64,000 bases of DNA from Acidobacteriaceae bacterium. Its GTDB lineage: Bacteria > Acidobacteriota > Terriglobia > Terriglobales > Acidobacteriaceae. A model generated the notes under the pieces. The model was not told the DNA's origin. It did no database searches and was given only the letters and a program-made list of their open reading frames with translations. A program made the position numbers and the translations under genes. The DNA lies in assembly GCA_903642235.1 (NCBI GenBank), contig CAHJWL010000004.1:186001-250000 (forward strand), written 5' to 3'. This document shows, one piece after another, positions 15,167 to 63,701 of this stretch (the first letter of the stretch is position 1; each line of letters starts with the position of its first letter).

Positions 15167-15169
15167 ATG

Positions 15170-18100
15170 ATGAAGCAAGCCAGGTGGCTCCATGTGTCCT
15201 TTCTCCAGAGAGTACTGCCGCCGAGCGGGGCGCTCCTCATTCTCGTGCTTCTCTTTCTCCCAATCGTCATTCGAGCGCAGACGACAAGCACGATCTCCGG
15301 CACAGTAAGCGATGCCACGGGCGCTGCTGTGCCCGGAGCAATCGTTACAGCGACGAACGCAGGCACGGGTGTACAGTTCCACACGCTCGCGGGCAGCGAT
15401 GGCATCTATCACATCACGCAGCTTCCGCCGGGTAGCTACTCCATGGAAGTAACGAGTGCTGGGTTCTCAACCGAAGATCTGCAGGCCTTTCCACTCCTGG
15501 TGGCACAGCAGTCACAGCAAAACTTCACCCTCACAATCGGCAAAGATGTGCAATCGGTGACAGTATCTTCTGCCTCGCTGTTGATTGAAACGGAGAATAG
15601 TACACAGGGACAGGTCATCGGACGGCAGACAGTGGAGGATCTGCCGCTAAATGGGCGTAATTACCTGCAATTGGCCCAGTTGTCAGCAGGCGTCACACCA
15701 CTCCTGCCGGGAGTAAGCTCTCCCGCATCGCAGTTCAACGGCAGTTCAGTGTCTGCCTCTTCTACGGCGACGGTAGCTATCGCGGGCTTGCGTGAGGACG
15801 ATAACAGCTTTCTGTACGACGGGATTGAGACCCGCAATGCGTGGTACGGCGCTGAAGGATTACTTCCTTCGCTCGACAATGTGCAGGAGTTCAAAGTGGA
15901 GCAGTCGGGAGCTCCGGCAAACCTGGCAGCAGGCGGCGCGTTTATCAGCGTTGTTACTCGATCAGGCACAAACAATCTTCATGGTTCAGTATTCGAGTTC
16001 CTGCGGAACAACGATTTCGATGCACGAAACTACTTCGATCCTGGAGCACCTCCCCCATTTCATCAGAATCAGTTTGGTGCCTTCCTTGGTGGCCCGATCA
16101 GGCGAAACAAGGCTTTCTTCTTTCTGAACTATGAGGGCTTCCGCCTGGTGCGACCTGTAGATTCGTTTAACGTCGTTCCGACTGCGGCGGAACTCTCTGG
16201 CGACTTCAGCGCTCTTCTCCAAGGGGATACCCCCGTCCACCTTGTCAATCCCACCACCAACATACGCTATCCGAATAATCAGATACCAACTTCATCTTCT
16301 AATTCACTCGGTCAGAAGATTGCCGCGTATTATCCCCTGCCAAACGGAGCGTTTCTAAATAACACGAATTACTTTAACGTCGCCAATACGGCACAAGGAA
16401 GAGATCAGGAGAGCGCTCGACTGGATTATTCCGTTTCGGCCAAAGACAATACTTTCTTCCGCTTCACTTTTGAGAGAGGATCTACCTCCGTTGGAAACAT
16501 TACACCTAGTCGAGCAATCGACTTTCCTTCCAACCCAAAAAATCTGGTCGCTGGTTGGACCCATGTGTTCTCTCCAAACCTTGTGAATGATGTTCGGTAC
16601 GGTTGGACGCACACACAAACGGGCAGTGAGCGGACAGATGGCTTCAATGCTGCTCAGGCGAATCCACTAGGACTCATCAATGAGGCGGACCAGCCAGGAT
16701 CATATGGCCCACCTTCGTTCAACGTGACGGGCCACGCAAACCCAGGATCGAGCGGTGGAACTACCCTTGTCAGCGAGGGATTGAACGAGGGAACAGAAAA
16801 CATCACGATCCAAAAGGGGAAGCATCAGATTTCCGCCGGTTTGGATATCCGCTACGCACCCATATTTCTCTACGAGGACTGGGCGGCCACGAACATTACC
16901 TTCAATGGTACCTACAGCGGAGATCCGGTTGCTGATCTCCTGCTCGGTGTGCCAAGTTCAGCGTTCACTGCAATCGGAGATCCTACCCTCAACCTGAGAG
17001 AGTGGTACCAGGCCTACTACGCGAGCGACAGCGTGAAGGTTAATAGCCGGCTGAACATTACTGCCGGTGTGAATTACTCCCATCTGTCTCAACCATATGA
17101 CACCAGGAATCGAGTGGGAAGCTTTGACGTTGCAAGAGGCCAGGATCTGTCCTATCCGGACACAAATGCTCTTGGGCTCACACGGGCAGTTGTCAAACCC
17201 AGATATCTGAACTTTGCGCCGCGTCTCGGCTTCAACTTTGTACCATTTGCGGACGGAAAGACAGATATAAAGGGTGGTTTTGGACTGTTCTTCATTCAAC
17301 CGAACTTAAATCAATATGAAGTTGCTGTGGACACAACCAAGTTCTACCTCATCCAGAGCTACAACAATCGCAGTCCAATTGACACGACCGGCAAATTCGT
17401 GGGTCCCAGCTTTGCACTGGGTGATCTCTTCGGCCCGAATGTTCCAGGTGGAGGTCCGACTGCCTCGTTCATTCAGCCGGACGGGAAGATGCCGTATACC
17501 TATGAGTGGAATCTGACGGTAGATCGCACCATTAAGAGCTGGCTGCTCGAAGCTGTTTACCTTGGTAGCGCCGCGCATCACTTCGAAGAGCGTCCAAACA
17601 TTGCTCCGCTGATCAATGGAAACGGAGACACCCGGTACACATCGAATGGTGTCACTCCATTCAACGGGGTTCAGGAGAATACGAACTCCGGCAGTTCCTT
17701 CTATAGTGGCATCGTCGCTCGAGTCGAACACCGCTACAGCTCTGGATTTGAGGTTCTCGGGAATTACACCTTCTCAAAATGCCTGGGATACCCCTACCAA
17801 GATCGCTTTACCTGGCACCCGCTCAACTTGCGGGTAGATCGAGGTCATTGTGACACTGACTTGAATCAGAACTTCATCGCGAATGCCATTTACGAACTTC
17901 CTTTTGGAAAGGGAAAGCAGTTCCTGAATCAGGGAGCTCTGCTTGATGCGGCTGTTGGAGGATGGCGTGTTTCAACAATTGCGTCGATCCACTCCGGCCC
18001 GTGGTTTACCTTAGGGAGCAATCAGAATCTCGGGATCTTTGTGAATGGTCTGCCTGATGTCACGGGTCCGGTAAACAACTCATCGCTACACAGTGGGTTG

Positions 18101-18412
18101 GGGAAGCACGGGTATTTGGGACCATACTTCAACACTCAGAATGTAATCCCAGTGACAGGTACGGCGGTTCAGGGAAATGCTTCGGTGCAACAGCTTATTG
18201 CGCCGGGAGCGGCGACATGGGATCTTTCCGGATATAAGAGCTGGACGTTTGCGGAGCGGTACACGCTAAACTTTCAGGCGGATGCGTTCAACGTCTTCAA
18301 TCGAGTCAACTTTACAGGACTCGATATAGGAGTAAACGATCCGCAGTTCGGGCGGGTTCAATCCGCTTCTGCAGCACGGGAGATTCAACTGGGTCTGCGT
18401 TTCAAGTTCTGA
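15170..18412 (+). CDS. Oar-type TonB-dependent outer-membrane receptor
   Basis: About 1080 residues. A signal peptide (cleavage near IVIRA-QTT) is followed by a carboxypeptidase-regulatory-like beta-sandwich (residues 38-115, STISGTVSDATGAAVPGAIV), a plug domain (VIGRQTVEDLPLNGRNYLQL, near 147-167) and a long beta-barrel ending in a terminal Phe (LGLRFKF) as required for outer-membrane assembly. This matches the Oar-like receptors abundant in acidobacteria, which import large or complex substrates with TonB energy. A strong AGGAGG at 15158-15163 favours the ATG at 15170 over the one at 15167. The TPR gene follows after 12 bases, so the two form an operon. The substrate cannot be told. Confidence 0.9.
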   Translation: MKQARWLHVSFLQRVLPPSGALLILVLLFLPIVIRAQTTSTISGTVSDATGAAVPGAIVTATNAGTGVQFHTLAGSDGIYHITQLPPGSYSMEVTSAGFSTEDLQAFPLLVAQQSQQNFTLTIGKDVQSVTVSSASLLIETENSTQGQVIGRQTVEDLPLNGRNYLQLAQLSAGVTPLLPGVSSPASQFNGSSVSASSTATVAIAGLREDDNSFLYDGIETRNAWYGAEGLLPSLDNVQEFKVEQSGAPANLAAGGAFISVVTRSGTNNLHGSVFEFLRNNDFDARNYFDPGAPPPFHQNQFGAFLGGPIRRNKAFFFLNYEGFRLVRPVDSFNVVPTAAELSGDFSALLQGDTPVHLVNPTTNIRYPNNQIPTSSSNSLGQKIAAYYPLPNGAFLNNTNYFNVANTAQGRDQESARLDYSVSAKDNTFFRFTFERGSTSVGNITPSRAIDFPSNPKNLVAGWTHVFSPNLVNDVRYGWTHTQTGSERTDGFNAAQANPLGLINEADQPGSYGPPSFNVTGHANPGSSGGTTLVSEGLNEGTENITIQKGKHQISAGLDIRYAPIFLYEDWAATNITFNGTYSGDPVADLLLGVPSSAFTAIGDPTLNLREWYQAYYASDSVKVNSRLNITAGVNYSHLSQPYDTRNRVGSFDVARGQDLSYPDTNALGLTRAVVKPRYLNFAPRLGFNFVPFADGKTDIKGGFGLFFIQPNLNQYEVAVDTTKFYLIQSYNNRSPIDTTGKFVGPSFALGDLFGPNVPGGGPTASFIQPDGKMPYTYEWNLTVDRTIKSWLLEAVYLGSAAHHFEERPNIAPLINGNGDTRYTSNGVTPFNGVQENTNSGSSFYSGIVARVEHRYSSGFEVLGNYTFSKCLGYPYQDRFTWHPLNLRVDRGHCDTDLNQNFIANAIYELPFGKGKQFLNQGALLDAAVGGWRVSTIASIHSGPWFTLGSNQNLGIFVNGLPDVTGPVNNSSLHSGLGKHGYLGPYFNTQNVIPVTGTAVQGNASVQQLIAPGAATWDLSGYKSWTFAERYTLNFQADAFNVFNRVNFTGLDIGVNDPQFGRVQSASAAREIQLGLRFKF

Positions 18413-18424
18413 TAGGTATTACTG

Positions 18425-19654
18425 GTGCACGTCAGAGTAAAAGCCTTCTCAGCCCTGATCTCCCTTGTCTGCTTGTATGGCGGCATGGCGGGGATCGGGG
18501 CTGTTTTGCTTCAGAGGGAAAGGCCGGAGAAGCAGAGAAGACCCGGAGCTGCGGTACAGTGCCCTTCCCGGAAGGAGATGGAAGATCTGCTGGCTCGTGG
18601 CGTCGAAGCGATGCAGCAGGCGAACTACCAGGAAGCTATAAAAATTTACGCATCACCTGCCGCGGCAGGATGTGAGCCACGCGTCGATCTGTTGCTGGCA
18701 GCGGCACACGAAGGCGCCGGGGACACAAGCGGAGCCGAGCACGTATTACAGCAGGGGCATGCCCGCTGGCCCTCAAACAACAGCATTGCGGTCTCTCTGG
18801 CCCGTCACTACTTGGCGCTGGGACAGACGGCAAAGGCGGGGCAGGCACTCTTGCACTTCCAGCCGGTCTCAGGGACATCTTCACGTGAACTGCAGATGGC
18901 GGTTGTAGTCTTCCTCGCTGATCACGAGCTTGTGCCTGCACGAGAGACAGCGAAGGTAGCCTACGAGCGGGATCCTTCTCTGCAAACCTTGCTGCTGCTG
19001 GCAAATGCGCTGCAACTTGAGGGCAGGTATAAAGAGGTCATTGCGTTGCTGCAGAGGAAACGCGCGCTTTATTCCGAATCTGCTGCTTTCCTGGTCACCC
19101 TTGCGGAGAGTGAGTTTGACGAGAAGATCTTCGATGGAGCGCTCCTGGATCTCACGCGGGCGGTGGCGATCGAACCGAAGTTATACCAGGCGCACTACCT
19201 GCGGGCAAACACGTTGATGAACTCGAATGACGTCGATGGAGCAATCACGGAATACCAAGAGGCCATCGAACTGGCCCCGAGCCAGCCGCGTACGTATTTT
19301 CAGCTTGCCCTCGCGTTGCGTGCAAAGCAGGACGAGGCCGGAGAGGAGAGTGCGCTCGAACAAGCATTAGCGATCAGCCCACAGTACGCGATGGCGCACT
19401 CGGAGTTGGGAAGGATGCTTCTGAATCAAAATCGTGTACCGGAGGCGGTCGAGCAGCTAAAGACAGCTATAGAACAGAACCCAAGGTCCGAGCAGGCATA
19501 TTACCTGCTGTCAAGGGCTTACGATCGGCTTGGCGAGACAGAGAAAAGCAGGGCTACAGCCAAGCTTCTCGCAAGGGTACGCAGCGCGAACCACGGGCAT
19601 GAGCAGGCGAAGGGGGTTGAGGAGAGCGATAGAACCACGGGCCTTTCACCCTAA
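18425..19654 (+). CDS. TPR-repeat periplasmic or membrane-anchored protein, partner of the Oar receptor
   Basis: A 409-residue protein with an N-terminal hydrophobic segment (residues 8-29) that could be a signal anchor, followed by tandem tetratricopeptide repeats. Clear units include YLALGQTAKAGQALLHF, AHYLRANTLMNSNDVDGAIT and AHSELGRMLLNQNRVPEAVE with the canonical W/L-G-Y-A-F-A-P spacing. The start is a GTG at 18425, 12 bases after the receptor stop. TPR domains bind other proteins; the coupling suggests it assists or scaffolds the receptor. The gene converges on the CRTAC1 gene with 23 bases between stops. Confidence 0.85.
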   Translation: MHVRVKAFSALISLVCLYGGMAGIGAVLLQRERPEKQRRPGAAVQCPSRKEMEDLLARGVEAMQQANYQEAIKIYASPAAAGCEPRVDLLLAAAHEGAGDTSGAEHVLQQGHARWPSNNSIAVSLARHYLALGQTAKAGQALLHFQPVSGTSSRELQMAVVVFLADHELVPARETAKVAYERDPSLQTLLLLANALQLEGRYKEVIALLQRKRALYSESAAFLVTLAESEFDEKIFDGALLDLTRAVAIEPKLYQAHYLRANTLMNSNDVDGAITEYQEAIELAPSQPRTYFQLALALRAKQDEAGEESALEQALAISPQYAMAHSELGRMLLNQNRVPEAVEQLKTAIEQNPRSEQAYYLLSRAYDRLGETEKSRATAKLLARVRSANHGHEQAKGVEESDRTTGLSP

Positions 19655-19677
19655 AGATTGCTCCTGATCGAGTGTCT

Positions 19678-21441
19678 TTACCGTGCCCAGCCAGAGTTTG
19701 GGACCACGCCAACGCCCTCTTTGATGGTCAGGAGAGCGTTCACGGACAGCTTGAGAAGTGTTTGGTGGCCTCCGCTGGGCCAGAAGATCTCGATGTCTGC
19801 GGAAACTGCGTCGCCCAGGCCGAAGTGTAGTCGGGTATCGCTCGCGGAGTAAAAGCTGGATTGGCTTAGTACGGCCTGGACCTGTGTCTTGCCGCCGTAT
19901 CGGACAAGCACGCGGGCGCCGATTGCACTACGGTTTGAGGTGACGCCAAGAAGCTTGATCTTAATCCAGTTGTGCTTGCCCTGGACATCGTTGCGCAGGA
20001 GCGAAGGGGGCTCGTTCAGGTTGATGATGAGTACATCGATGTCGCCATCGTTGTCGAAGTCGCCAAAGGCGCAGCCTCTGCTGCAATGCGGCGCGGCGAC
20101 ACCCGGCCCGGCCTCGTCGGTAAGCTCTTCGAAGCTACCATTGCCCAGATTGCGGAAGACGACGCGAGGCGTTTTATAGGGGTAGTCGGCCGCTTTCTTC
20201 TCGACCTCCGGGTACACGCTGCCGGTCACGACGACGACATCGGGCAGACCATCGTTATCGAGGTCGACGATGCCCGTACCCCAGCCGGTGAAGCGAGTTT
20301 CTACTCCAATCTTTGTGGCGAAGGTCACGTCTGTGAAGCTTCCATGGCCATCGTTGCGGTAGAGCACGCTGGTGTCGTCGGAGAAGTGGGTCTTAAAGAG
20401 GTCGAGCCGGCCATCAAGGTTGTAGTCCCCAACGCCGATACCCATGCCGGCCTGTTCCATGCCATCGTCACTCAGAGCGACGCCGCGCTCGACACCCATC
20501 TCCTGGAGCCGTGGCTTGCCTGTGTTGATTAAAAGAACGCTAGGTGTCGAATCGGCGGCGAGATAGATATCCTGCAGCCCAGTCTCGGCAAAATCTGCCG
20601 CAACGGCAGTCATACCGTATTGCTCCTTCAAGTCGGCAACACCGGATTCACGACTGATGTCCGTAAAGGTTCCATCTCCGTTGTTGCGGTAAAGCGAGTG
20701 CTTTCCGGGCGGCAGGCCGCGTGGACCGCAGCTCACGGCTACGCCCTTCCAGCTGCAGTTAGCTGCACTGCCCGGACGAGGGACGTGGACGAAGTCGAAG
20801 CCGGTGTAGTTCGCGACAAACAGATCAAGATGTCCGTTGCGGTTGAGGTCGACGAAGGTGCATCCGGAGCCCCAGCGAGAAGGATCGTTGGTGAGCCCTG
20901 CTTCCCTGGTAACGTCGGTGAACGTACCATTGCCGTTGTTGCGATAGAGGCGGTTCTGGCCGTAGCAGGTGACGAAGAGATCTTCAAAGCCATCGTTGTT
21001 GTAGTCACCGACGCAGACCGCGGCGGCCCAGCCGGTTGCGGCAAGGCCTGCCTTATGAGTGATGTCGGTAAAGGTGCCGTCGCGATTATTGTGGTAGAGG
21101 CGATTAGTGGCTTCAGGTGGCGGCGACTCGCGCCGCGTGCCGCACAGCAGGAAGATGTCGATCCAGCCATCGTTGTCGTAGTCAATGAAGGCGCAGCCGC
21201 AGCCGACGGCTTCGAGGATGTAGTCCTTGCGGTCAAGAGGTCCGTAAATAGTGGGCATGGTCAGACCAGCCTGCGCGGCCACATCAACGAGGTGCGAAGA
21301 GAAGGGGACGCCAGAGCGCGGCGCCTTGGTTTGCGCCTTGACGTGGCGCTCGGAGACACCCTGACCGGGCAGGCGCAAGGCTGATGATCCAAGCGCACCT
21401 GTAATCGATAACTTCAGAAATTTTCGCCGGGCCTGGTTCAT
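19678..21441 (-). CDS. CRTAC1-family protein (FG-GAP/VCBS propeller with ASPIC/UnbV domain)
   Basis: About 587 residues. The N-terminus has a twin-arginine signal (ARRKFLKLSITGALG), so it is exported folded by the Tat system. The body has repeated FG-GAP/VCBS units, such as DYDNDGWIDIFLLCG, DYNNDGFEDLFVTC and DLNRNGHLDLFVANY, whose D-x-D-x-D-G loops bind calcium in a seven-bladed propeller. The C-terminal 70 residues (SNRSAIGARVLVRYGG to IEIFWPSGG) are an ASPIC/UnbV domain. The frame opens with a TTG at 21450, but the ATG at 21441 fits the Tat signal. Such proteins are common beside TPR and Oar genes in acidobacteria. The role is unknown, probably binding carbohydrate or protein at the cell surface. 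Confidence 0.9.
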   Translation of the reverse strand: MNQARRKFLKLSITGALGSSALRLPGQGVSERHVKAQTKAPRSGVPFSSHLVDVAAQAGLTMPTIYGPLDRKDYILEAVGCGCAFIDYDNDGWIDIFLLCGTRRESPPPEATNRLYHNNRDGTFTDITHKAGLAATGWAAAVCVGDYNNDGFEDLFVTCYGQNRLYRNNGNGTFTDVTREAGLTNDPSRWGSGCTFVDLNRNGHLDLFVANYTGFDFVHVPRPGSAANCSWKGVAVSCGPRGLPPGKHSLYRNNGDGTFTDISRESGVADLKEQYGMTAVAADFAETGLQDIYLAADSTPSVLLINTGKPRLQEMGVERGVALSDDGMEQAGMGIGVGDYNLDGRLDLFKTHFSDDTSVLYRNDGHGSFTDVTFATKIGVETRFTGWGTGIVDLDNDGLPDVVVVTGSVYPEVEKKAADYPYKTPRVVFRNLGNGSFEELTDEAGPGVAAPHCSRGCAFGDFDNDGDIDVLIINLNEPPSLLRNDVQGKHNWIKIKLLGVTSNRSAIGARVLVRYGGKTQVQAVLSQSSFYSASDTRLHFGLGDAVSADIEIFWPSGGHQTLLKLSVNALLTIKEGVGVVPNSGWAR

Positions 21442-21955
21442 AGGACACAAGAAACGTGCGGCGCCTTAGGGCATGTGGCTACGCGCAACGGTCGCTGCCT
21501 GAGTGTAACGGAAGGACCGAAAGGAAGGGAGGCTGCTCAGGAAAGTGCAGGACAGCCGTGGAACTTGTTAAGTAAGACATGACATTAACGGGTGGCTGCG
21601 TCGAAGGGCAGGAACAGAGTGAAGACTTCCGGCTATGACCGTCCATTTGGCTGCTTCCGCTGTTCAGAGCTCCTGGATGCCGGTCAATGACCTCCGTGCT
21701 CACCCATAGTCCCTAGTCCGGTATCGCCGAACTCTTTCATCGTAGATAACGGATCAAAGTTCTTCTAACTTCTGCGCGGATGCCCGTACCTGTGTCTGCG
21801 ACCGTTAATACCAGACCTTTCGCCTCGTAGGCCAGTGCGTCGCTTCGCGACTGCGCAGGAACAAGCGCCCTGTGAGGGAGCTTCTTGTTGTGAGCGGACC
21901 ACATCAGGTGCGAGCCAAACCGAACGCAACGTCTGACTGTAGCGATCGTTAGTCA
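21442..21955. other. Intergenic stretch with no supported gene
   Basis: About 510 bases between the CRTAC1 start and the end of the MATE gene. Small frames on the minus strand (for example 21479-21703 and 21765-21956) show no domain and no ribosome-binding site. The promoter of the CRTAC1 gene should be here. Confidence 0.45.
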
Positions 21956-50543: not shown

Positions 50544-51239
50544 ATGCCTTCCGCAACACTGCATTACATCTACGATCCACTCTGCGGCTGGTGCTACGCC
50601 GCCGCACCCCTGTTAGAAGCTGCAAGCCAGCTCATCCCGATCCGGTTGCATGGCGGCGGCATGATGACAGGCACTCGCCGGCAGAAGATCACCCCGGCAT
50701 GGCGCGACTATGTCCGCCCGCAGGATCAACAGATCGGCAAGGCTACAGGCCAGCACTTTGGCAAAGCCTATCTGGATGGCCTGCTTGAAGATGAATTGGC
50801 TGTTCTCGATTCAGGGCCGCCCACAGCAGCAATCCTTGCAGCAGAAGAGCTCGGTGGAATAGGGCTGGAGATGCTTGCTCAGTTGCATAAAGCTCACTAT
50901 GTCCAGGGCCGGCGGATCGCGGACGAGCAGGTGCTGGTCGAAATAGCGCAAGCCACCGGTTTAAACAGAATGCCGTTCCTGACCTCCTTGCGAGCGATCT
51001 CGACAGCAAGGTTGGAAGCTCACTTCATGGAGAGCCGTAGACTCCTGAGTGCGAGTGGCGGCACTGGTTTCCCAACCTTCCTTCTGGAGCGGGACAGTGT
51101 CTTTCAGCGGCTCAATCACGCCCAGTTTCTAGGGCGACCAGCCGACTGGCGTGAGGCTCTGACAACAAACCTTCCCCTCATCGAGTCTGCGGCAGTCGGA
51201 ACGAGGATCGGGTGTGGCCCGGACGGATGTCTCGTCTAG
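50544..51239 (+). CDS. DsbA/FrnE-like thioredoxin-fold oxidoreductase
   Basis: A 231-residue protein with the redox motif CGWC (Cys14-Cys17) at the start of a thioredoxin fold interrupted by a long helical insert, as in FrnE and 2-hydroxychromene-2-carboxylate isomerase-like proteins. A cis-Pro is in GGTGFPTFLL near residue 178. There is no signal peptide, so unlike periplasmic DsbA it acts in the cytosol. FrnE-type proteins handle disulfides in oxidative stress. Confidence 0.87.
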   Translation: MPSATLHYIYDPLCGWCYAAAPLLEAASQLIPIRLHGGGMMTGTRRQKITPAWRDYVRPQDQQIGKATGQHFGKAYLDGLLEDELAVLDSGPPTAAILAAEELGGIGLEMLAQLHKAHYVQGRRIADEQVLVEIAQATGLNRMPFLTSLRAISTARLEAHFMESRRLLSASGGTGFPTFLLERDSVFQRLNHAQFLGRPADWREALTTNLPLIESAAVGTRIGCGPDGCLV

Positions 51240-51249
51240 GAGTTCTTCG

Positions 51250-52434
51250 ATGACAGATCTGATTGCCACAAAACCAGGGAACAGCGGCATCCGGTCATGG
51301 CTGGCCGTCGCTTCTGTTGCGACGGCGGCCTTTGTCGTGATCACGACGGAGTTTCTGCCCATCGGCCTGCTTGGAACGATCGCTGCGGATGTGCATGTGT
51401 CGGTCGGCACGGCGGGCTTGATGGTAGCCATTCCGGGTATCGTCGCAGCCGTCGCGGCACCGTCGCTCACGCTGCTGACGAACAAGATAGATCGGCGCCT
51501 GCTGCTGATCGGGTTTGCGGCACTTGTCATGCTCTCAAACGTGATCGTGGCACTGTCATCCAGCTTCGCCACGATCCTGGCTGGCCGGGTGCTGCTCGGC
51601 ATTTGCGTCGGCGGATTTTGTACCTTCGCCGTAGCCGTCGGCCGAAGACTTGTTCCGGAAGCGCAGGGAAGCCGCGCAACGGCAATCATCCTGGCTGGAG
51701 TCTCGATAGGAACGGTGGTTGGCCTTCCTATCGGCACGGCCCTAGGAGCGCTGGCAGGCTGGAGATTTGCCTTCGGCTGTGTCGCCGGGTTTGCAGGTCT
51801 GACCGTCCTCAGCCAAGCCCTGCTCCTCTCTAGCCTGCCGAATCGCGACGTTACCACCTTCGGCCTGCTGGCGGGTTTGTTCAAGATCCCAGCCATGCGG
51901 GTAGGCTTTCTCGCTTCAGCCCTGACTGCGGCCGGACACTTCGCCGCTTACACGTACCTACAGCCGTACCTGTCCCGCATCGTCCATCTCACGCCGTCAG
52001 GCGTCACCTGGACTCTTGCAGCGTACGGTTCAGCCGGCATCGTCGGCACGTTTGCCAGCGAACGAGCAGCAAACCGCTCGCTTCGCTGGACCTTCTTCGT
52101 CGTCTCGCTTTTCCTGGGTCTGGCTATCCTGACGGCTGCCGCATTCAGCGCGGACCGCATCGGCTCCATAGCCGCAGTTGTGACCTGGGGCGCGGCCTTC
52201 GGAGCGGTCCCGGTGTGTACCCAGATCTGGACCTACCGGTCGGCTCCGGAGCGGTTTGAGCCCGCATCGGCCATGGGCATCACCGTGTTCCAGATCGCGC
52301 TTGCCGCTGGCTCGTTCGGCGGCGGCGTTGTCGTCGACTATGCCGGCCTCTTGCCGGCCTTTCTCCTTGGCGGAGCTCTCGCGCTAGCCTGCGGGCTTCT
52401 CCTCCTGCTGGCTCGAGCCCCGTCCGGAGAGTGA
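51250..52434 (+). CDS. MFS transporter (DHA1-type)
   Basis: A 394-residue, twelve-helix MFS protein. TTEFLPIGLLGTIAADVHVSVGTAGLMVAIPG is the first helix pair of the AraJ/SotB/YdhP-type sugar or drug exporters; the motif A loop is shifted as usual in that group (LTNKIDRRLLLIG). The frame is open from 51214, but the ATG at 51250 with AGGAG upstream is the start. It follows the DsbA-like gene by 10 bases, so is likely in the same transcript. Confidence 0.9.
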   Translation: MTDLIATKPGNSGIRSWLAVASVATAAFVVITTEFLPIGLLGTIAADVHVSVGTAGLMVAIPGIVAAVAAPSLTLLTNKIDRRLLLIGFAALVMLSNVIVALSSSFATILAGRVLLGICVGGFCTFAVAVGRRLVPEAQGSRATAIILAGVSIGTVVGLPIGTALGALAGWRFAFGCVAGFAGLTVLSQALLLSSLPNRDVTTFGLLAGLFKIPAMRVGFLASALTAAGHFAAYTYLQPYLSRIVHLTPSGVTWTLAAYGSAGIVGTFASERAANRSLRWTFFVVSLFLGLAILTAAAFSADRIGSIAAVVTWGAAFGAVPVCTQIWTYRSAPERFEPASAMGITVFQIALAAGSFGGGVVVDYAGLLPAFLLGGALALACGLLLLLARAPSGE

Positions 52435-55323: not shown

Positions 55324-56373
55324 ATGCAGGTCACCAAGAAACCGCGTATTCAGGATGTGGCTCTCAGGTCGGGTGTCTCTTTAGGCACCGTCTCTGCAGT
55401 GCTGAATGGCAATGGACGCGTGAGCGAAGCTACGCGTGAGCACGTTCGCTCAGCCATTCGGGAACTCAACTATCGCCCGGATCTTTATGCCAGCAATCTG
55501 GCTCGTCGGCAGAGTCAACTACTTGGAGTCGTGATCTCCAACCTGCAAAATGCCTTCTTTGCTGAAACCGCCCAAGCTATCGAGGAAGAAGCTGAACGGC
55601 ACGGTTATCAGATATCTCTGATGGCAACAAACTTTTCGCCTGAGCGGCAGAGAGCCGCCGTAAAACAGCTACTTGGAGCGCGCATCGCCGGGATTGCCGT
55701 CATCACTTCTGAGCACGATGAGGAAGCTCGGCACTTGGTGGATGAAAGTGGCACGCGGGCTGTCTTCTTAGACTCAGGGAAACCCACGCATGAAACCTCG
55801 ATCATTCGTGTTGATTCTCGTGGAGGCATGCGGGCCGCAGTTGAGCATCTGCTACAACTGGGCCATCGTAACCTGCTCTATGTTCGAAACTCCCAAAAGA
55901 CGATAAAGCAGGGCCTCCTGTCACACCAGCTGCGTGATCAGGGTTTTTCTTCTGCTGTTCGTGCCTGCAGGACCTCTGGCCTTAACACTGCAATCGTTGA
56001 CATTGCGGGACCTGGCGCTGACGCCGGCGAACAAGCTATCAGGTCGGTCATCGATATAAAACGATTTACGGCCGTGATTGCTGTGACAGACACCGTTGCA
56101 ATGGGTGTCTACCGTGGTCTGCGAGCGCGTGGCATGCGGATACCTCAGGACGTTTCAGTAGTTGGTTTTGACAACACCTATTTCGCACGCTTTCTGGACC
56201 CGCCTCTGACCACTGTTAATGTTCCTCGCTCGGAGCTCAGTCGTTTGTCTGTTACGACGCTTCTTGGTCTGGAGCCAAATCGTTTACTACACTTGCCAAC
56301 TTCATTGGTGATTCGCGAATCAACAGCGGTACCAAAGGCAGGGGCTATCAGCGGAAACAGGCTTGCCCGGTGA
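55324..56373 (+). CDS. LacI-family transcriptional regulator
   Basis: A 349-residue LacI/GalR protein. The helix-turn-helix and hinge helix are PRIQDVALRSGVSLGTVSAVLNGNGRVSEATREHVRSAIRELNYRPDLYASNLAR (residues 7-62); the periplasmic-binding-like ligand domain follows, with GVVISNLQNAFFAE, AVTDTVAMGVYRGLRARG and VVGFDN. The frame is open from 55108, but the ATG at 55324 is the proper start, although its ribosome-binding site is weak. It is near a receptor-TPR operon and a GH127 gene that share LacI-type operators, so it probably responds to a sugar from a pectin-like or arabinan-like polymer. Confidence 0.9.
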   Translation: MQVTKKPRIQDVALRSGVSLGTVSAVLNGNGRVSEATREHVRSAIRELNYRPDLYASNLARRQSQLLGVVISNLQNAFFAETAQAIEEEAERHGYQISLMATNFSPERQRAAVKQLLGARIAGIAVITSEHDEEARHLVDESGTRAVFLDSGKPTHETSIIRVDSRGGMRAAVEHLLQLGHRNLLYVRNSQKTIKQGLLSHQLRDQGFSSAVRACRTSGLNTAIVDIAGPGADAGEQAIRSVIDIKRFTAVIAVTDTVAMGVYRGLRARGMRIPQDVSVVGFDNTYFARFLDPPLTTVNVPRSELSRLSVTTLLGLEPNRLLHLPTSLVIRESTAVPKAGAISGNRLAR

Positions 56374-56748: not shown

Positions 56749-58260
56749 CTATTGCGGAGCCGCGTACTGAGTCTCGCCAGCTTCGTACAATCTGTACCGA
56801 TCAGGCCCTTGCTGGTCTCTTGCTTTGAGTTCTTGTAAACGCTTGGCAAAAGTACTGACCTCGCGGGAGTCGCCGTTACGGCGCGCGACCATCATCAAAC
56901 GAAAAACCGCTTCCTGATCAGCAGGGTCGGCGCGGAGAGCGGCATGCGCGGCCTCCGCTGCTTGCGTCAGATCTCCTGACGAGAACTCCTGCTCGGCGAT
57001 GATGTCCCACGCTCCCACAAGCTTAGGGTCTAGTGAGACGGCCTTGCGTGCATAGGTGAGGCACTCAGCCGAACGCGCCGTCCCGGAAGCAGCATCCACT
57101 TTGAGGATTTGCGCGGCCATGTAGTGAAGGTAGGCATTCTCGGGAGTCAGGAGCAACGAGTTCTTCACCTCTTCCAATGCTTTCGGCAGATCGTGTTGCT
57201 GAATGGCAGCAATGCCCTGTGCTTCCCGGCCGAAAGTTTGCTTTGGATCGAGTCGATTCGCCTCGGCAAAGTCTCGCTCGCCGCCGGCGACATCCCCGAC
57301 CTGCATGAGAAGAATCCCTCGCGCGGTGTAAAGCGCAGCGGCTCTTGGCAGCCGATGTAGGCCCACGTTCAGCATGGCCAGCCCCGCACGAGGTGAATTG
57401 TGGTCCAGGCTTATGGTCGCAAAGTCAACGTAGTTTTGCGATTCATTCGGGTTTGCCGCGATCGCTTTCCGGAGAAGTTCAACAGCAGCAGGAGTGTGCC
57501 CGGATCTCTCCAGCAAAGCTGCCGCCAGCGTCATTGCGGGCCCATCTTGCGCATCCAGCAGAGGCTGCAGAGTGTCGAGCGCGGTCTCGCTGGCCCCACG
57601 CTTGTGTTGTAAGGCAGCCAGGTTGTAACGTGCCCAGTTGTCTGCCGGCCACCGCAGCAAAGTGGCCGTCAGGACCCGTTCGCAATCGTCCACTCTCTGT
57701 AACCGCGCAAGAGTGTCGGCATATGTGTCTGATCCCTGCTGATTGTTCGCCAAGGTTGCTTCCGCCTTGGCAAAGTGCTCGGCTGCAAGTACGTAGTTGC
57801 CCGCGCGGTACGCGAGAACAGCCGCCATACCATTGGCATTCGGCTCGTTCGGGAGCTGTTGCAGGAGCTGTTTCAGGTATGGTTCTGCACTGGCGGGCTC
57901 ATGTCTATAAAGCACCTCACAAGCACCTTCAAGCGCCGGCACGTATTTCGGATCAGCGGCAAGCGCACTCTGGAAAGAGCGCAACGCATCTTCCTCTTTG
58001 GCGAGTTGCATCTCTGCCAACCCTCTAAGGGTTAGCAGTCGAGCTTCTCTGGGTGAGCTCCGTAACGCCGTCGTCGCATCGCGCAGAGCTTCAACTGGCT
58101 TCCCAGACCGAAGCTCCTCCGCGATGCTGTCTCTCGAGGGCACTTGCGCGAGCATCCTGCTTGCGCACAGGTAAGCGATGAAGAGCATAGACGTAGCCCC
58201 AAGGGAGTTAGCCCTGAGCCGTGTGAGTGCTCCGCTCCTAAATGTATGCAACAAGCGCAC
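56749..58260 (-). CDS. TPR-repeat protein, partner of the Oar receptor
   Basis: A 503-residue protein with an N-terminal signal-like hydrophobic segment (residues 24-39) and about ten TPR units, for example ARLLTLRGLAEMQLAKEEDALRSFQSALAADP and AALYTARGILLMQVGDVAGGERDFAEANRLDP. It starts at a GTG (58260) only 6 bases after the receptor stop. As with the other pair in this window, the receptor and the TPR protein are one operon. It probably works in the periplasm with the receptor. Confidence 0.85.
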   Translation of the reverse strand: MRLLHTFRSGALTRLRANSLGATSMLFIAYLCASRMLAQVPSRDSIAEELRSGKPVEALRDATTALRSSPREARLLTLRGLAEMQLAKEEDALRSFQSALAADPKYVPALEGACEVLYRHEPASAEPYLKQLLQQLPNEPNANGMAAVLAYRAGNYVLAAEHFAKAEATLANNQQGSDTYADTLARLQRVDDCERVLTATLLRWPADNWARYNLAALQHKRGASETALDTLQPLLDAQDGPAMTLAAALLERSGHTPAAVELLRKAIAANPNESQNYVDFATISLDHNSPRAGLAMLNVGLHRLPRAAALYTARGILLMQVGDVAGGERDFAEANRLDPKQTFGREAQGIAAIQQHDLPKALEEVKNSLLLTPENAYLHYMAAQILKVDAASGTARSAECLTYARKAVSLDPKLVGAWDIIAEQEFSSGDLTQAAEAAHAALRADPADQEAVFRLMMVARRNGDSREVSTFAKRLQELKARDQQGPDRYRLYEAGETQYAAPQ

Positions 58261-58266
58261 CTTGCC

Positions 58267-61200
58267 TCAAAAACTTACTCTCGCACCTACGTCCATGTTA
58301 CGCGGGGTGTATTGCTGGTTCGACCGTCCAAAGGTGCCGTTGGCGGCATTTCCGTCCACTCCGTACAGGTTTACGCGATTGAATAGATTAAACAAGTCGA
58401 GCCGGAGTTCCAGAGTTACACCCTCCCGAAGGGTTGTGACTTTCTTCACGTCCAGGTCCCATTGAGCAAACCCTGGGTTCTGGAATGTGTTTGGAAGCTC
58501 GTTCCCCTCCTGACCGAGCGTCGGCAGGGCAAAGTTGCCGCATGCTTGACCAACCGTGCCAAAAGCACCACCACACGTTAAGGCTCCAGAAGCGTTCGTT
58601 GCAACACTTGAAGGAAAAACTCCCGTGAGATAGTCGGTGCGTGAGCGGTGGATAGAGGGACTGACGATGCTGGGAAAGTCGTTGTTGTTCCCGTCCCCAT
58701 TGAAGTCTCCGCTGTGCGGGTTAAGGCTGGTAACCTGGCCTTGCGCATCGATTGTCGCTGGCTGGAACGATTGGTTTGTATAGACCGTAAACCGCTGGCC
58801 TTGCTGCAGAATCGCCGTTCCAGCTAAGGTGAATCCATTCGTGAGCCGGCTGACAAAGCCGTTTGTTCCTAAACCCGGAAGCACGTAGCTATACCCCAAC
58901 GAGAATCGGTTAGGCACATCCCAATCTGACCTGCTGTAGAAATGCTCTAAGTCGTTCGTGGGATAGTTGCCCCAGTTATCCATCGATCGGCTGTAGGTAT
59001 AAGACCCTGTGACAAAGCCGCGAGAGCTGATGCGACCCTTAACTCCGGTGACCAGAGAGTTGTAATTCGAGTGCGCAAGATTGCGGCCGAACGTAATCGT
59101 TCCGAAGCTGGGGTTCAGACGATTCGGTGATGATCGATACTTCCCGGGTGTTGCGCCCGGCGTCTGCTGATACAGATCACCGTTGAAGCGGTTGATGTCG
59201 GTGCCGTAGATCGTGGCCGTCGTACTTCCACCGCCTGTGACCAGGTTGTTCGAAATGGACCCCACATAGCCGACAGTCGCCACAAACCCTGCACTCAACT
59301 GTCGCTCGACTGTAAGCGCGAAGTTGACCGTGTTTGAGGCGCCTGTGTTCCTGTCGATACCCCCAATATTGACCTGCTGTCCCGTGATGCCACCCTGCGC
59401 GTTGAGCGGCTTGCCTGGAAAGGCTGGGTACGCGAACCCGGTAGGAGTAGCAGAACTGCTACCAAGGCTGAAAATCGGCGCCGCAGTCTTTCCATCGTTG
59501 AAGAATGTAGGAACCACGTAGTTCGGCGGATTGCCGTTGAAGACGTCGCCACCTTGCCCGAGCGTCGGACCATCATGGTAAAGACCCACGCCCCCGTGCA
59601 GCGTGCTCTTGCCATCGCCAAAAATATCGAATGCGAATCCGGCGCGCGGCGCGATACCTCGAATACTACTTCCGTAAGCACGCTCAACGACCCGCAATGA
59701 TCCACTCGCTACTTGCTGGTCGAAAGTGGCTCCACTACCGGGAAAGAAGTTGGCGTACCGCAAACCGTCCTTACCGTATGGATTGCCAAAATCGTCGTAT
59801 CTCAGACCGAAGTTCAAGGTTGCGCGCTGGTTTATCTTCCAGGTGTCTTCAACAAAGCCTCCGTAGGTCTTCGTCGCATACCCGTAGTCGCCGCTTGCGG
59901 GCTTCCCTGTGACCGGGTCGTAGGCCAGGGATGTTTCACTCACTGGACGATCTTGCACTAAGTCCAGAATGTTGTTGAAGTTGAAGTTTGGCTGGTTATG
60001 TACGCCGGCAAAGAGTGCGTCGCCGGTGTAGTAGACGCCATCCACGCCGAAGCGCAAGCTGTGATTGCCGGCAATGTGCGTCAGAACGTCACGCCAGTGA
60101 TAATTCGTTTGAACAAAGTCGCCCTGCGCGAAGCCGACTCCATACCCGCTCACCCCGCTTACATTTATCGCAGGGACCTTGAAGTCTCCGGTGCGGCTAT
60201 TTTCGCCCTCAACCCTGAGGTACGCTGCGCTGGCTTCGTTCAGGGTGTTGGGCGTAAACGTGTGCGTCTCATTTACTTGGTAGGCCTGTGTTTGTGACGT
60301 GTTGTCTGTACTAAACGCCGGCCGTGCGTTCGGCGAGCCGGTATCCAGGTGCTGGCGATACACCGTTCCATACAGCCTGTCTTTGCTGAAGTACTTGTCG
60401 AGCCGAACGTTGTATTGAACTGCGTTTCTCGGGGATGAACTACTGAAATTGCCACGATCAACGACTGGAGTTGAACAAGGCAAAAAATTTGTGCTGGCGG
60501 TCTCACACGCCTGTGCAGAACCGACGGGAAAGGCTTGTGCTGCGGTTTGTGCGACAGACACACTCGAGATGCCGCTTGCAGCATAGTTCGACACGACTCC
60601 AATGCCGACAGTGTTGGGGAACGTCGATTTTGCGAACTGAATGAAGGCTGGGTCTTCGAAGGTAACGCCTGTTGGATTGTTGGCCGCAACGGACCGAAGC
60701 GGTTCAAGGGAAAAGAAAAAGAAGGCTTGGTGGTGTGGGACGATCGGACCACCTATGCCTGCCGAGATGTTGTTGCTGTGGTACGGCTGGTAAGTTCCAA
60801 AGTGCTGGCGTGAGATCAGATACTGGTTGGTGAAGTAATCGCTGGCGAAGCCGTGAATTCGGTCTGATCCGGACTTCGTTGTGATGCTTGTCTGGATTGA
60901 ACTCGCCCGACCGTAATCCACGTTGAAAGTGTTTGTCTGAATCGCCACTTCCGAAATCGAATCGGGATTTGGTGTCAGATTCGTGACACCCGGCCGAACG
61001 CTGCTCGTGATGTCAAGACCATCAATGACATACAAGTTTCCGTTCGCACCGCGGCCATTTGCACTCACATCGTTAGCGGCTTCGGTGTTGAAATTGTCAG
61101 TCGTTGTGCCTCGTCCGCTCACTCCGGGTGCAAGCGTGATCAGCGTGACAAAATTTCGTCCTGGCAGAGGCAAGTTGTCGAAGGCCTTTGTGTCAAGCGT

Positions 61201-61689
61201 GAGCTGGTTGCGAGTCTCCGCAGTATTCAGCAGCGGGGCTTCTGCGGTGACAGTCACGCCCTGTGTCACACCCTCCGCGCCGACTTTCAGCGCCACGTCG
61301 CGTGTCTCATTCGTGCTCAGGGTGATTGTCGCCTCAGCCTTGTTGAAGCCCTGGGCTACAGCTGTGACGCGATAGTTCCCGGGAGCCAGGCTGGGGAAGC
61401 GGTACACTCCCGAATCATCTGTTGTTGCAGTTCGGCTTACATTCTTCTCGATATTGAGCAGATCGACCCTTACGAATGGGATCACCGCGCCTGTCGCGTC
61501 CACGATCGTGCCCTGGATATTTCCGCTGAACTGAGCCGTGAGCGGCATCGCGCCGGCGACCGCAAGAAGAATGAGAAGAGCGCATCTCACGCGGAAGTTG
61601 AAGGTCCGCCTCGCCCTGTTCCCGAAACGTACAAGCTTGAGAACGGCAAGACTCTGCGGTTGCACAATGATCGATTGTTTAGAGGACAT
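58267..61689 (-). CDS. Oar-type TonB-dependent outer-membrane receptor
   Basis: A 1140-residue receptor. After a leader helix (residues 32-52) come the carboxypeptidase-regulatory-like domain (GNIQGTIVDATGAVIPFVRV), the plug (LDTKAFDNLPLPGRNFVTLI) and the beta-barrel ending in RVSF with the terminal Phe. It probably imports an oligosaccharide or another large molecule. The ATG at 61689 is divergent from the GH127 gene, with two LacI-type operators in the 170 bases between. The TPR gene follows in the same transcript. Confidence 0.92.
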   Translation of the reverse strand: MSSKQSIIVQPQSLAVLKLVRFGNRARRTFNFRVRCALLILLAVAGAMPLTAQFSGNIQGTIVDATGAVIPFVRVDLLNIEKNVSRTATTDDSGVYRFPSLAPGNYRVTAVAQGFNKAEATITLSTNETRDVALKVGAEGVTQGVTVTAEAPLLNTAETRNQLTLDTKAFDNLPLPGRNFVTLITLAPGVSGRGTTTDNFNTEAANDVSANGRGANGNLYVIDGLDITSSVRPGVTNLTPNPDSISEVAIQTNTFNVDYGRASSIQTSITTKSGSDRIHGFASDYFTNQYLISRQHFGTYQPYHSNNISAGIGGPIVPHHQAFFFFSLEPLRSVAANNPTGVTFEDPAFIQFAKSTFPNTVGIGVVSNYAASGISSVSVAQTAAQAFPVGSAQACETASTNFLPCSTPVVDRGNFSSSSPRNAVQYNVRLDKYFSKDRLYGTVYRQHLDTGSPNARPAFSTDNTSQTQAYQVNETHTFTPNTLNEASAAYLRVEGENSRTGDFKVPAINVSGVSGYGVGFAQGDFVQTNYHWRDVLTHIAGNHSLRFGVDGVYYTGDALFAGVHNQPNFNFNNILDLVQDRPVSETSLAYDPVTGKPASGDYGYATKTYGGFVEDTWKINQRATLNFGLRYDDFGNPYGKDGLRYANFFPGSGATFDQQVASGSLRVVERAYGSSIRGIAPRAGFAFDIFGDGKSTLHGGVGLYHDGPTLGQGGDVFNGNPPNYVVPTFFNDGKTAAPIFSLGSSSATPTGFAYPAFPGKPLNAQGGITGQQVNIGGIDRNTGASNTVNFALTVERQLSAGFVATVGYVGSISNNLVTGGGSTTATIYGTDINRFNGDLYQQTPGATPGKYRSSPNRLNPSFGTITFGRNLAHSNYNSLVTGVKGRISSRGFVTGSYTYSRSMDNWGNYPTNDLEHFYSRSDWDVPNRFSLGYSYVLPGLGTNGFVSRLTNGFTLAGTAILQQGQRFTVYTNQSFQPATIDAQGQVTSLNPHSGDFNGDGNNNDFPSIVSPSIHRSRTDYLTGVFPSSVATNASGALTCGGAFGTVGQACGNFALPTLGQEGNELPNTFQNPGFAQWDLDVKKVTTLREGVTLELRLDLFNLFNRVNLYGVDGNAANGTFGRSNQQYTPRNMDVGARVSF

Positions 61690-61714
61690 CTTTGGCCTTT
61701 CAGAACGGAATGCC

Positions 61715-61817
61715 GAAACGTTTCACCGGGATCTCAGCTTCTACTATTTCTCTGCACTGCTGTCAACTATCACCGTTGCACAACCTGTTCCGGCTGGCTA
61801 TGATGTAAACGCTTTCA
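61715..61817. promoter_or_regulatory. Two LacI-type operators between the receptor and GH127 genes
   Basis: GAAACGTTTC (61715-61724) is a perfect 10-base palindrome with the central CG typical of LacI-family sites. TGTAAACGCTTTCA (61804-61817) fits the TGWNANCGNTNWCA consensus of LacI/CcpA-type operators at every position. They lie 26 bases before the receptor start and 43 before the GH127 start. Confidence 0.75.
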
Positions 61818-61859
61818 CATTCTGAGTGCGTCTGTTCTGATGTCTGTCTGGAGATTGCT

Positions 61860-63701
61860 ATGCCCTACGCTGGAAGACTTGATCGCCGCCGCTTTTTGAA
61901 GGAAGCTGGTACCGCCTCCGCCAGTGCAGCGCTCGCTCCGTACTGTTGGCAGGCCGCCGTGGCAGAGACGAATGCTCCTTTGCAGCCCGCTCTCTCTGCG
62001 CCCCGCGTTCTTTTAACACCGATGCCGTACAGCACGGTAACCCTCGCACCAGGCAAGCCGGAGCAGCAGCGCAAGGACACCGTCGCCGTACTGTTTTCGC
62101 TCAGCGATGACGAACTGCTCAAGCCATACCGCGTGCGCTCCGGCAAGGACGCACCGGGCAGACCCATTGGCGGCTGGTACGACGCGTACGCGTACAGCCC
62201 AGGGCACACCTTCGGCCAGTGGCTGTCCGCTTTCTCACGGACTGCAGCCATTGAAGATTCCGAGCCGATGCGGGCGCGCGTACGCGGCCTTGTTGCTGGG
62301 CTCGGCGATTCGTTCGACGCGAAGGGCAGCTTCTTCAACGAAGACAACCGCTTCCCGGCGTACACGTTGGAAAAGCTGAACTGCGGCCTCGTCGACGCCT
62401 ACCAGTTCGGCGGAGACAGGAATGCGGCAGAGGTGCTCCACCGGGTGAACGCCCTGGCCCAGCCACACCTGCCGGAGAAGGCGCTCTCGCGCGTGGAGCA
62501 GAAGAAGCGGTCCACGCGCGACGAGACCTATTCCTACGACGAGACGTATACGTTGCCCGAGAACTACTTCCTCGCTTACCAGCGCATGGGCGACACGTAC
62601 TACCGCGAGCTTGCGCTGAAGTTCATGCACAGCAGCTTTCTTAATCCGCTTGCGCAGGGTGAGAACGTTCTGCCGGGGCTGCATGCTTACAGCCACCTGA
62701 ACGCATTGAATTCGGCAGCGCAGGCCTACCTGGTCACGGGCGATACGAAGGCGCTGACCGCAGCCGTGAATGGCTTCGACTTTGTCCAGCAGCAGAGTTT
62801 CGCCAGCGGCGGCTGGGGACCGAATGAGGCGTTTGTGACGCCAGGACGCGGCGAGCTGGCGCAAAGCCTGCATGGAACGCACAGCTCGTTTGAGACGCCG
62901 TGCGGCGCATACGGCCACTTCAAGATCACGCGTTCGTTGCTCGCTATCACGGGCGACGGCCGGTATGGCGATTCGATGGAAGCCGTAATGTTCAACACGA
63001 TCCTCGGCTCACTTCCGTTGCAGCCGGATGGCCGATCGTTCTACTACTCCGATTACAACTTTGAGGCAAAGAAGGCCTACCACGCTACGAAATGGCCCTG
63101 CTGCTCCGGTACGCTCGCGCAAGCGGCATCGGACTACCGCATCAATGCCTACCTACATGGCGCGCGAGGGCTCTATGTCAATCTCTACACGCCATCGACA
63201 GTTCGTTTTGAAGACGGTGGTCGCCCCGTGGAAGTGCAGCAGAGCGGTGATTACCCGTTCGACAGCGCCATCCACTTCGATGTGCGTCCCGCACATGCCG
63301 CGCGTTTTGCGCTCTCCTTCCGGGTACCCGCATGGGCGGGCAACAACGCGCGCATGACGCTGAATGGAAAGCCGCTACCAATGCCGACACTGGTAAAGGG
63401 CTTCACCACGGTTGAGCGTGTCTGGGGCAAACACGATCGCCTTACGCTGGATCTTCCGCTCGCGCTGCGCATCCAGCCGATCGCACCGGAGACGCCAAAC
63501 ACAGTCGCCCTGCTGCGCGGCCCGGTGCTGCTCTACGGCTTGGGGCCTGCAGAGACAGTTAAGGAGACAGCTCTGCTCGCGGCGCGGCAGACGGACCAGA
63601 GCCGATGGACGGTTGCAACCTCCGCTGGCGATCGGACGTATGTACCGTTCTCAGCGATCTCAGGCGAGACCTACAGCCCGTACCAGGTGGTCACCGGCTG
63701 A
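61860..63701 (+). CDS. GH127-family glycoside hydrolase (beta-L-arabinofuranosidase-like), Tat-exported
   Basis: A 613-residue (alpha/alpha)6-barrel enzyme of family GH127 (DUF1680). It starts with a twin-arginine signal (DRRRFLKEAGTASASAALAP), so it is exported folded. The zinc-thiolate catalytic site of GH127 is seen as Glu345 and Cys348 (ETPCGAYGHF) and the Cys414-Cys415 pair (WPCCSGTL), very near the Cys417-Cys418 of the characterised enzyme HypBA1, whose Cys417 is the nucleophile. It should cleave beta-L-arabinofuranosides or a related furanoside in the periplasm. It is divergent from the receptor-TPR operon and has LacI-type operators upstream. Confidence 0.88.
   Translation: MPYAGRLDRRRFLKEAGTASASAALAPYCWQAAVAETNAPLQPALSAPRVLLTPMPYSTVTLAPGKPEQQRKDTVAVLFSLSDDELLKPYRVRSGKDAPGRPIGGWYDAYAYSPGHTFGQWLSAFSRTAAIEDSEPMRARVRGLVAGLGDSFDAKGSFFNEDNRFPAYTLEKLNCGLVDAYQFGGDRNAAEVLHRVNALAQPHLPEKALSRVEQKKRSTRDETYSYDETYTLPENYFLAYQRMGDTYYRELALKFMHSSFLNPLAQGENVLPGLHAYSHLNALNSAAQAYLVTGDTKALTAAVNGFDFVQQQSFASGGWGPNEAFVTPGRGELAQSLHGTHSSFETPCGAYGHFKITRSLLAITGDGRYGDSMEAVMFNTILGSLPLQPDGRSFYYSDYNFEAKKAYHATKWPCCSGTLAQAASDYRINAYLHGARGLYVNLYTPSTVRFEDGGRPVEVQQSGDYPFDSAIHFDVRPAHAARFALSFRVPAWAGNNARMTLNGKPLPMPTLVKGFTTVERVWGKHDRLTLDLPLALRIQPIAPETPNTVALLRGPVLLYGLGPAETVKETALLAARQTDQSRWTVATSAGDRTYVPFSAISGETYSPYQVVTG

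Follow-up and report, generated by a model that had tools for sequence, protein, structure and literature searches.

We analysed a 64,000-nucleotide stretch from an Acidobacteriaceae bacterium (contig CAHJWL010000004.1, positions 186,001 to 250,000; hereafter the window), whose genome assembly measures 3.79 Mb in 29 contigs. Near its right end lie a LacI-family regulator, a tetratricopeptide repeat (TPR) protein, an Oar-type outer-membrane receptor and an enzyme of glycoside hydrolase family 127 (GH127). Open reading frame (ORF) positions and Pfam matches place all four where the original prediction had put them. The receptor (1140 residues; 58267–61689, minus strand; OMP_b-brl_4 7.7e-102, CarboxypepD_reg 9.7e-19) is followed on the same strand by the TPR gene (503 residues; 56749–58260; TPR_16 1.5e-20), and the gap of 6 bases between the receptor stop and the TPR start was confirmed (58261–58266, minus strand). 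The GH127 gene (613 residues; 61860–63701, plus strand; PF07944 5.2e-39, PF20736 3.2e-21) is divergent from the receptor gene across 170 intergenic bases. The LacI-family gene probably spans 55324–56373 on the plus strand (LacI 4.6e-18, Peripla_BP_3 4.3e-29).

The order of receptor and TPR genes is not a product of chance. In the source genome, 58 matches to the receptor barrel family merge to 51 receptor ORFs; 48 of them are intact and form our gene-level set, after dropping a broken gene on contig C7, one cut at a stretch edge and a weak match on C10. At least 40 TPR ORFs carry TPR_16 (150 of 264 candidates were scored), and 10 of these lie directly 3′ of a same-strand receptor against 0.40 expected (p = 2e-11), where our Poisson expectations assume uniform placement. 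Counted from the receptors, 10 of the 48 have a same-strand TPR gene at most 500 bases downstream, with gaps of 5 to 320 bases, while within the same distance two TPR genes are found upstream on the same strand, four are divergent and one is convergent; orientation therefore matters. Some TPR gene within 500 bases is present for 14 of the 48. In six related genomes (150 listed receptor rows, and 93 listed TPR ORFs after rows of one ORF were merged by eye), 14 TPR ORFs stand directly behind a receptor. Two of these, on G003:C1 and in different frames, may represent a single broken gene or a tandem pair and were counted once, giving 13 genes against 0.43 expected, and pairs occur in four of the six relatives. 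The enrichment of TPR genes beside receptors, whose absence would have refuted the original prediction, is thus found both in the source genome and in its relatives.

The window's own pair belongs to a definable lineage. A search with its TPR protein returned 68 matches. Besides the window's own record these comprise 34 relatives that align over a long stretch and 33 weak matches of partial length; the own record and the 34 relatives make up a 35-row alignment, A1. Scanning species genomes with A1 gave 57 loci. We built a tree of 91 receptors, 48 from the source genome and 43 from these loci (FastTree, midpoint root). On the window receptor's side of a supported branch fall 44 rows, namely 42 receptors from the loci, that of the window and the receptor at C5:176799 of the source genome, and the other 46 receptors of that genome fall outside. 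The window receptor and C5:176799 are also the ones that precede the genome's only two strong members of the TPR family, the second of which scored 237 bits in a search with the window protein and the next match 31. Since the loci were chosen by the TPR family, neither they nor the tree can show how often a receptor of this clade lacks a TPR gene. Across 24 adjacent pairs, receptor and TPR distances are correlated (Mantel r = 0.67, with none of 2000 permutations as high), which shows joint inheritance rather than contact.

A second Oar-TPR pair with a CRTAC1 gene had been proposed in the same window, and we confirmed it at 15167–21450. It comprises a receptor (15167–18412, plus strand; OMP_b-brl_4 6.1e-187, CarboxypepD_reg 3.9e-19), a TPR gene that begins 12 bases after it (18425–19654, plus strand) and, convergent to both, a CRTAC1-type FG-GAP/UnbV protein (19678–21450, minus strand; FG-GAP_3 2.8e-53, UnbV_ASPIC 7.4e-18). 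This is one of ten pairs in the genome, which are spread over several receptor lineages. Its TPR protein belongs to another TPR family, as its A1 profile score is 50.8 and that of the window's main TPR protein 665.6. The suggestion that the TPR protein is specific to Oar receptors therefore holds in part: the family of the main pair goes with one receptor clade, but receptors of other lineages in this genome are followed by different TPR families.

The 57 loci all carry acidobacterial names, those nearest the window by protein included, except one metagenome-assembled genome (MAG) labelled Binataceae. The nearest relative is a lichen-derived MAG (L074), with a TPR protein 81% and a receptor 93% identical to those of the window. 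The receptor lies directly upstream of the TPR gene in 22 of the 57 (same strand, gap under 600 bases); beyond this strict rule, two loci overlap through an extended start, one has a gap of 656 bases, and in three the contig ends at the TPR gene. Another arrangement, TPR-CRTAC1-receptor, is found in 11 of the 57, several of which then carry a second TPR gene of the same family. Typed neighbours in representative loci include GH39, GH31, GH43, GH3 and a major facilitator superfamily (MFS) transporter; enzymes resembling mandelate racemase and 6-phosphogluconate dehydrogenase were also typed, as was a histidine kinase adjacent to a Peripla_BP_4 protein. The MFS transporter was typed in one relative, and similarity revealed it in 2 of 20 receptor-centred loci, 17 of which have GH127-like genes. 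These neighbours are the company of a glycan-utilization locus, in which the sensors vary. In the source genome, four of eight UnbV matches have a receptor-TPR pair no more than 3 kb away, against 0.24 expected. These four are at C11:15463, C4:28294, C4:31486 and window positions 19678–21450; at C4:30082–33993, UnbV and TPR matches fall within one ORF of 1303 residues.

The window's TPR protein carries a predicted Sec signal peptide and no lipobox. Signals were called with a hydropathy rule of our own, which looks for a small-x-small site after a signal-like N-terminus, and 33 of the 35 family members have both; a lipobox-like pattern occurs in one of the 35, other than the window's. Among receptor-linked TPR ORFs of the source genome, 8 of 9 pass the same rule (the window's second pair is outside this set). 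C5:180533 fails it with its long ORF start, and C4:26840 passes it and bears a lipobox-like pattern. On this signal prediction the protein is not cytosolic, and its predicted export fits the periplasmic adaptor that had been proposed. Its AlphaFold2 model (mean predicted local distance difference test score, pLDDT, 87.3) is helical from end to end and has about 13 TPR units. All 50 PDB fold matches listed are TPR-type or similar helical-repeat proteins, the closest being TPR superhelices such as O-GlcNAc transferase; LbcA is also among the PDB matches. Units 7 to 9 are the best conserved part. Over all repeats, with borders that we set ourselves, positions in the groove are somewhat more conserved than those on the outer face (1.80 vs 2.09 bits).

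The receptor has the N-terminal carboxypeptidase-regulatory-like extension of Oar-type TonB-dependent receptors (Pfam CarboxypepD_reg-like domain, residues 58–134, 61288–61518, minus strand) and a beta-barrel domain at residues 270–1132 (PF25183; 58294–60882, minus strand). Between them lies VTVTAEAP (residues 145–152, 61234–61257, minus strand), which we take to be TonB-box-like; in 25 receptors V145 and V147 are invariant and P152 is conserved in at least 90%. The Plug model stays under its cut-off (20.8 vs 23.9 bits). The 50 PDB fold matches listed for the receptor model are TonB-dependent-type outer-membrane receptors, and a PDB sequence search with the receptor profile retrieved four chains only, aligned in the carboxypeptidase-regulatory-like part. 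The receptor model is of middling quality (mean pLDDT 64.8), with the plug region below pLDDT 50, and we therefore read no interface from it. A receptor gene broken into several frames lies at C7:80411–83552 of the source genome.

Both GH127 domains of the enzyme score above their cut-offs (PF07944, 134.8 bits with a cut-off of 24.9; PF20736, 75.7 bits with a cut-off of 24.2). Its twin-arginine translocation (Tat) signal exceeds the NCBIfam cut-off for TIGR01409 (20.7 vs 16.7 bits), and the twin-arginine motif RRRFL was located by pattern at 61884–61898 (plus strand). The enzyme shares with the GH127 beta-L-arabinofuranosidases 4qjy and 3wkw the catalytic and middle domains and the Glu/Cys and Cys-Cys motifs. 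It differs from 4qjy, its closest solved structure, in the Tat signal and in having ETPC (residues 345–348, 62892–62903, plus strand) where 4qjy has ETC, one residue shorter; the Cys-Cys pair (residues 414–415, 63099–63104, plus strand) aligns with that of 4qjy. GH127 structures have a Glu-Cys-Cys-Cys metal site, for which ETPC would supply a probable Glu and Cys, and the Cys-Cys pair is a probable catalytic or metal ligand. The ETPC-form enzymes are a separate high-scoring group in the related loci. Their genes occur in 16 of the 57 loci, mostly with a Tat-type start, one gene being seen in two overlapping loci. A second GH127-family gene of the source genome (C1:189926–193423, in L002) consists of two overlapping frames, is perhaps frame-broken and lies away from the receptors listed there.

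The LacI gene probably starts at the ATG at 55324 rather than at the ORF opening at 55108, because the helix-turn-helix begins at residue 81 of the longer ORF. The two LacI-type operator-like sites that had been placed between the divergent genes are present as sequence patterns: TGTAAACGCTTTCA at 61804–61817, 42 bases before the GH127 ATG, and the palindrome GAAACGTTTC at 61715–61724, 25 bases before the receptor ATG. The former is the sole exact match to the pattern TGNAANCGNTTNCA within the window. With one mismatch allowed, the pattern matches five times against 1.99 expected, and hence only the exact match is notable. In L074 the intergenic stretch has a long insertion, yet TGTAAACGCTTTCA is conserved there, and the second site retains its AAACGTTT core, shifted by one base in register. 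Exact matches number eight in the 904 kb of the 57 related loci; five of the eight fall within the 20 kb around receptor starts, where 0.18 are expected. The pattern stands upstream of receptors in four loci other than the window's.

Each part of the locus is of a known kind; what is new is the recurrent pairing of receptor and TPR protein and its setting in a glycan locus that lacks SusD. The SusD family (PF07980) was found in none of 21 genomes, while a control Bacteroides genome matches, and this supports the proposed glycan-utilization locus without SusD. SusC/SusD loci of Bacteroidota likewise place a receptor beside a gene for a helical-repeat protein, with glycoside hydrolases and a regulator. 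Unlike them, the window has no PF07980, and its partner protein, which is optional, is a simple TPR solenoid that has a signal peptide but lacks a lipobox. SusD homology of the TPR protein was considered and dropped, as it has no PF07980 match at 1e-3 and the PDB sequence and fold matches listed are ordinary TPR-type. A closer likeness is with the carbohydrate utilization loci containing TonB-dependent transporters (CUT) of Xanthomonas; in the sux locus, a TonB-dependent receptor, a carbohydrate-degrading enzyme and a LacI/GalR regulator adjoin, and that study reports that no SusD-like protein was found in Xanthomonas (PMC1790865). The window shares with these loci the receptor, the degrading enzyme (here GH127), the LacI regulator and the lack of SusD, and differs in the Oar-type N-terminal domain of its receptor, the TPR gene in the operon and the Tat signal of its GH127. 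The receptor itself resembles Oar of Myxococcus xanthus, a TonB-dependent receptor with the same type of N-terminal extension, and SusC is reported to have the domain architecture of Oar (PMC6434023). Oar of M. xanthus has a role in protein secretion, whereas the neighbours in the window point to glycan use. Among the matches listed in a literature search, in which most subscription journals are outside the scope, no description of the receptor-TPR pairing appears in titles or abstract openings; in the accessible part of a Granulicella omics paper, TonB-dependent receptors come up a single time, and TPR and SusD not at all (PMC7074687).

Taken together, we read the system as a SusD-less, CUT-like glycan-utilization locus with a likely periplasmic TPR adaptor, and we hold the chances of this being correct to be about even. 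The LacI protein is predicted to repress both divergent units, and a sugar inducer would release it from the two operator-like sites. The receptor, energized through TonB, would import an oligosaccharide of a likely arabinose-bearing glycan through the outer membrane. The Tat pathway is predicted to bring GH127 to the periplasm, where the enzyme would remove L-arabinofuranose. The TPR solenoid, predicted to be exported by Sec and made from the receptor's own operon, would serve in the same compartment. It may dock on the periplasmic face of the receptor, at the CarboxypepD_reg domain or the plug, and might hold the Tat-exported enzyme or the incoming oligosaccharide near the opening, thereby coupling import to cleavage. 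SusD is a surface lipoprotein that acts as a lid on the cell surface, and the TPR adaptor would sit across the membrane from that position.

Several observations weigh against this reading. In a phylum-wide search (A1 at E 1e-60, 297 genomes, five candidates scored per genome) the strong TPR family gave 12 matches, in 10 of the 297 genomes and 4 of the phylum's 167 genera, and it is therefore narrow. In favour of the pairing, eight of these matches sit immediately 3′ of a receptor reported by the receptor search of the order described below (two in the source genome and one in each of six relatives), and the remaining four are outside the neighbourhood comparison. Among the matches listed, no pair was found in two of the six relatives (G013 and G014). 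The partnership is also not strict. A receptor search of the order matched 58 of 200 genomes at 1e-60 or better. We then read the neighbourhood of the best match in each of 30 genomes, window included, a sample biased towards the window's clade (for two of its loci the copies L077 and L087 were used). The TPR family directly follows in 13 of the 30 and comes after one further gene in four; two loci are cut by a contig end, and in 11 the family was not found at the 3′ side or one gene from it. A GH127-like gene stands directly behind the receptor in four of these 11 loci. Of seven further receptors, three have the TPR gene directly behind and four lack it. Given these 11 near receptors without it, the TPR protein often accompanies one receptor clade but is not obligatory for it. 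In its central repeats the groove is no better conserved than the outer face (2.07 vs 2.06 bits), and a conserved groove was dropped as a sign of a ligand site. The glycan type is inferred from the GH127 family name only, and an inner-membrane sugar transporter, a component of CUT loci, was not recognized by eye beside the four window genes. The regulation varies as well: an exact operator match is missing in 40 of 45 receptor-upstream regions of related loci, and a LacI match is present in 1 of the 20 receptor-centred loci and a kinase in 8, so that a LacI gene is not a general part of such loci.

The recurrence of pairs with several receptor lineages could also be explained if the TPR protein were an assembly or stability chaperone for its own large receptor, unrelated to the substrate. 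The periplasmic TPR proteins BamD, NlpI and LbcA take part in assembling or turning over envelope proteins, and LbcA is among the PDB matches noted above. However, close receptors live without the TPR protein, the TPR families differ between pairs, and the window's family also precedes CRTAC1 in the TPR-CRTAC1-receptor operons; we regard the chaperone role as possible but unlikely. A reversed direction of transport is another candidate. Partners exported by Tat or Sec, such as CRTAC1 and GH127, would then leave through the receptor across the outer membrane, and the TPR protein would be their periplasmic cargo receptor. Both partners recur, with Tat-type N-termini in 12 of 25 CRTAC1 and 19 of 24 GH127 ORFs (called with our own pattern rule), and the clustering of UnbV matches near receptor-TPR pairs fits such a role. 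Nevertheless, Tat cargo is folded and would be hard to pass, and the sugar sensors, MFS transporters and several glycoside hydrolases of the loci point to import. PopC itself is reported to lack a signal peptide (PMC6434023). Export is, in our judgement, improbable.

The literal form of the original prediction, in which the TPR protein is a functional stand-in for SusD, capturing glycan at the cell surface and shutting the receptor, is not supported, and we consider it highly unlikely. It has in its favour the same gene position as SusD, the absence of PF07980 described above, and the build of the SusD family itself. In the SusD-family protein BT_3984, the sugar site runs along the interface between four TPR units and a loop-rich subdomain, and a conserved face of the TPR units is proposed to bind SusC (PMC2954216). 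But 34 of the 35 family members have no lipobox, the model consists of helices with no loop-rich subdomain, and the protein is often missing beside close receptors (the 11 of 30); these TPR-less close receptors are the strongest result against equating it with SusD. What stands of the overall interpretation is the SusD-less glycan locus, the operon-like pairing and the predicted export. Finally, the neighbourhood could be a variable island that gathers exported proteins with no functional link, since TPR genes are also found divergent to receptors (four) or before them (two). The same-strand 3′ bias with its short gaps, the recurrence across named genera and the correlated distances argue against this, and we give it hardly any weight. 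The periplasmic adaptor remains our preferred reading.

To our knowledge, glycan handling without SusD in such bacteria is unsettled, and a recurrent, operon-linked, predicted periplasmic partner offers a concrete protein for its study. Receptors of this family number 51 ORFs in one genome and 9 to 50 in each of the six relatives among the matches listed. It is tempting to ask whether outer-membrane glycan uptake arrived at two solutions to its partner problem, one on the outside of the membrane and one on the inside. We would go further only speculatively, and with low expectation: Acidobacteria might own a class of energized outer-membrane machines, in which dedicated periplasmic TPR solenoids of Oar-type receptors pick up Tat-exported GH127 or CRTAC1 proteins and link these to the receptor, replacing a surface SusD lid; the purpose could be import combined with cleavage, or even export through the receptor.

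Some minor observations were made along the way. In one related locus (L098:6509–9654), a histidine kinase adjoining a Peripla_BP_4 protein is divergent from a TPR-CRTAC1-receptor operon; such a kinase and binding protein may act as the sensor where no LacI gene is near. A protein of about 960–1020 residues lies between the receptor and the TPR gene at L077:6914–9838, L169:5897–8836, and in L083 and L087; it has no Pfam match in L077, L087 and L169 and no NCBIfam match in L169. At L161:11230–13785, an 851-residue protein with no Pfam or NCBIfam match comes directly after a TPR-less receptor, and ORFs of about that length come after the receptor in L162 and L170. In the window, an ORF for an MFS-like membrane protein was noticed by eye at 51214–52434, some 3 kb ahead of the LacI gene. 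Ferredoxin-reductase-like and cytochrome-P450-like ORFs, likewise noticed by eye, follow GH127 just beyond the end of the window (L048:14019–16612), and the lichen MAG has a Pyr_redox_2 gene beyond its own GH127; these redox and P450-like genes may hint at a glycosylated terpenoid-like substrate.

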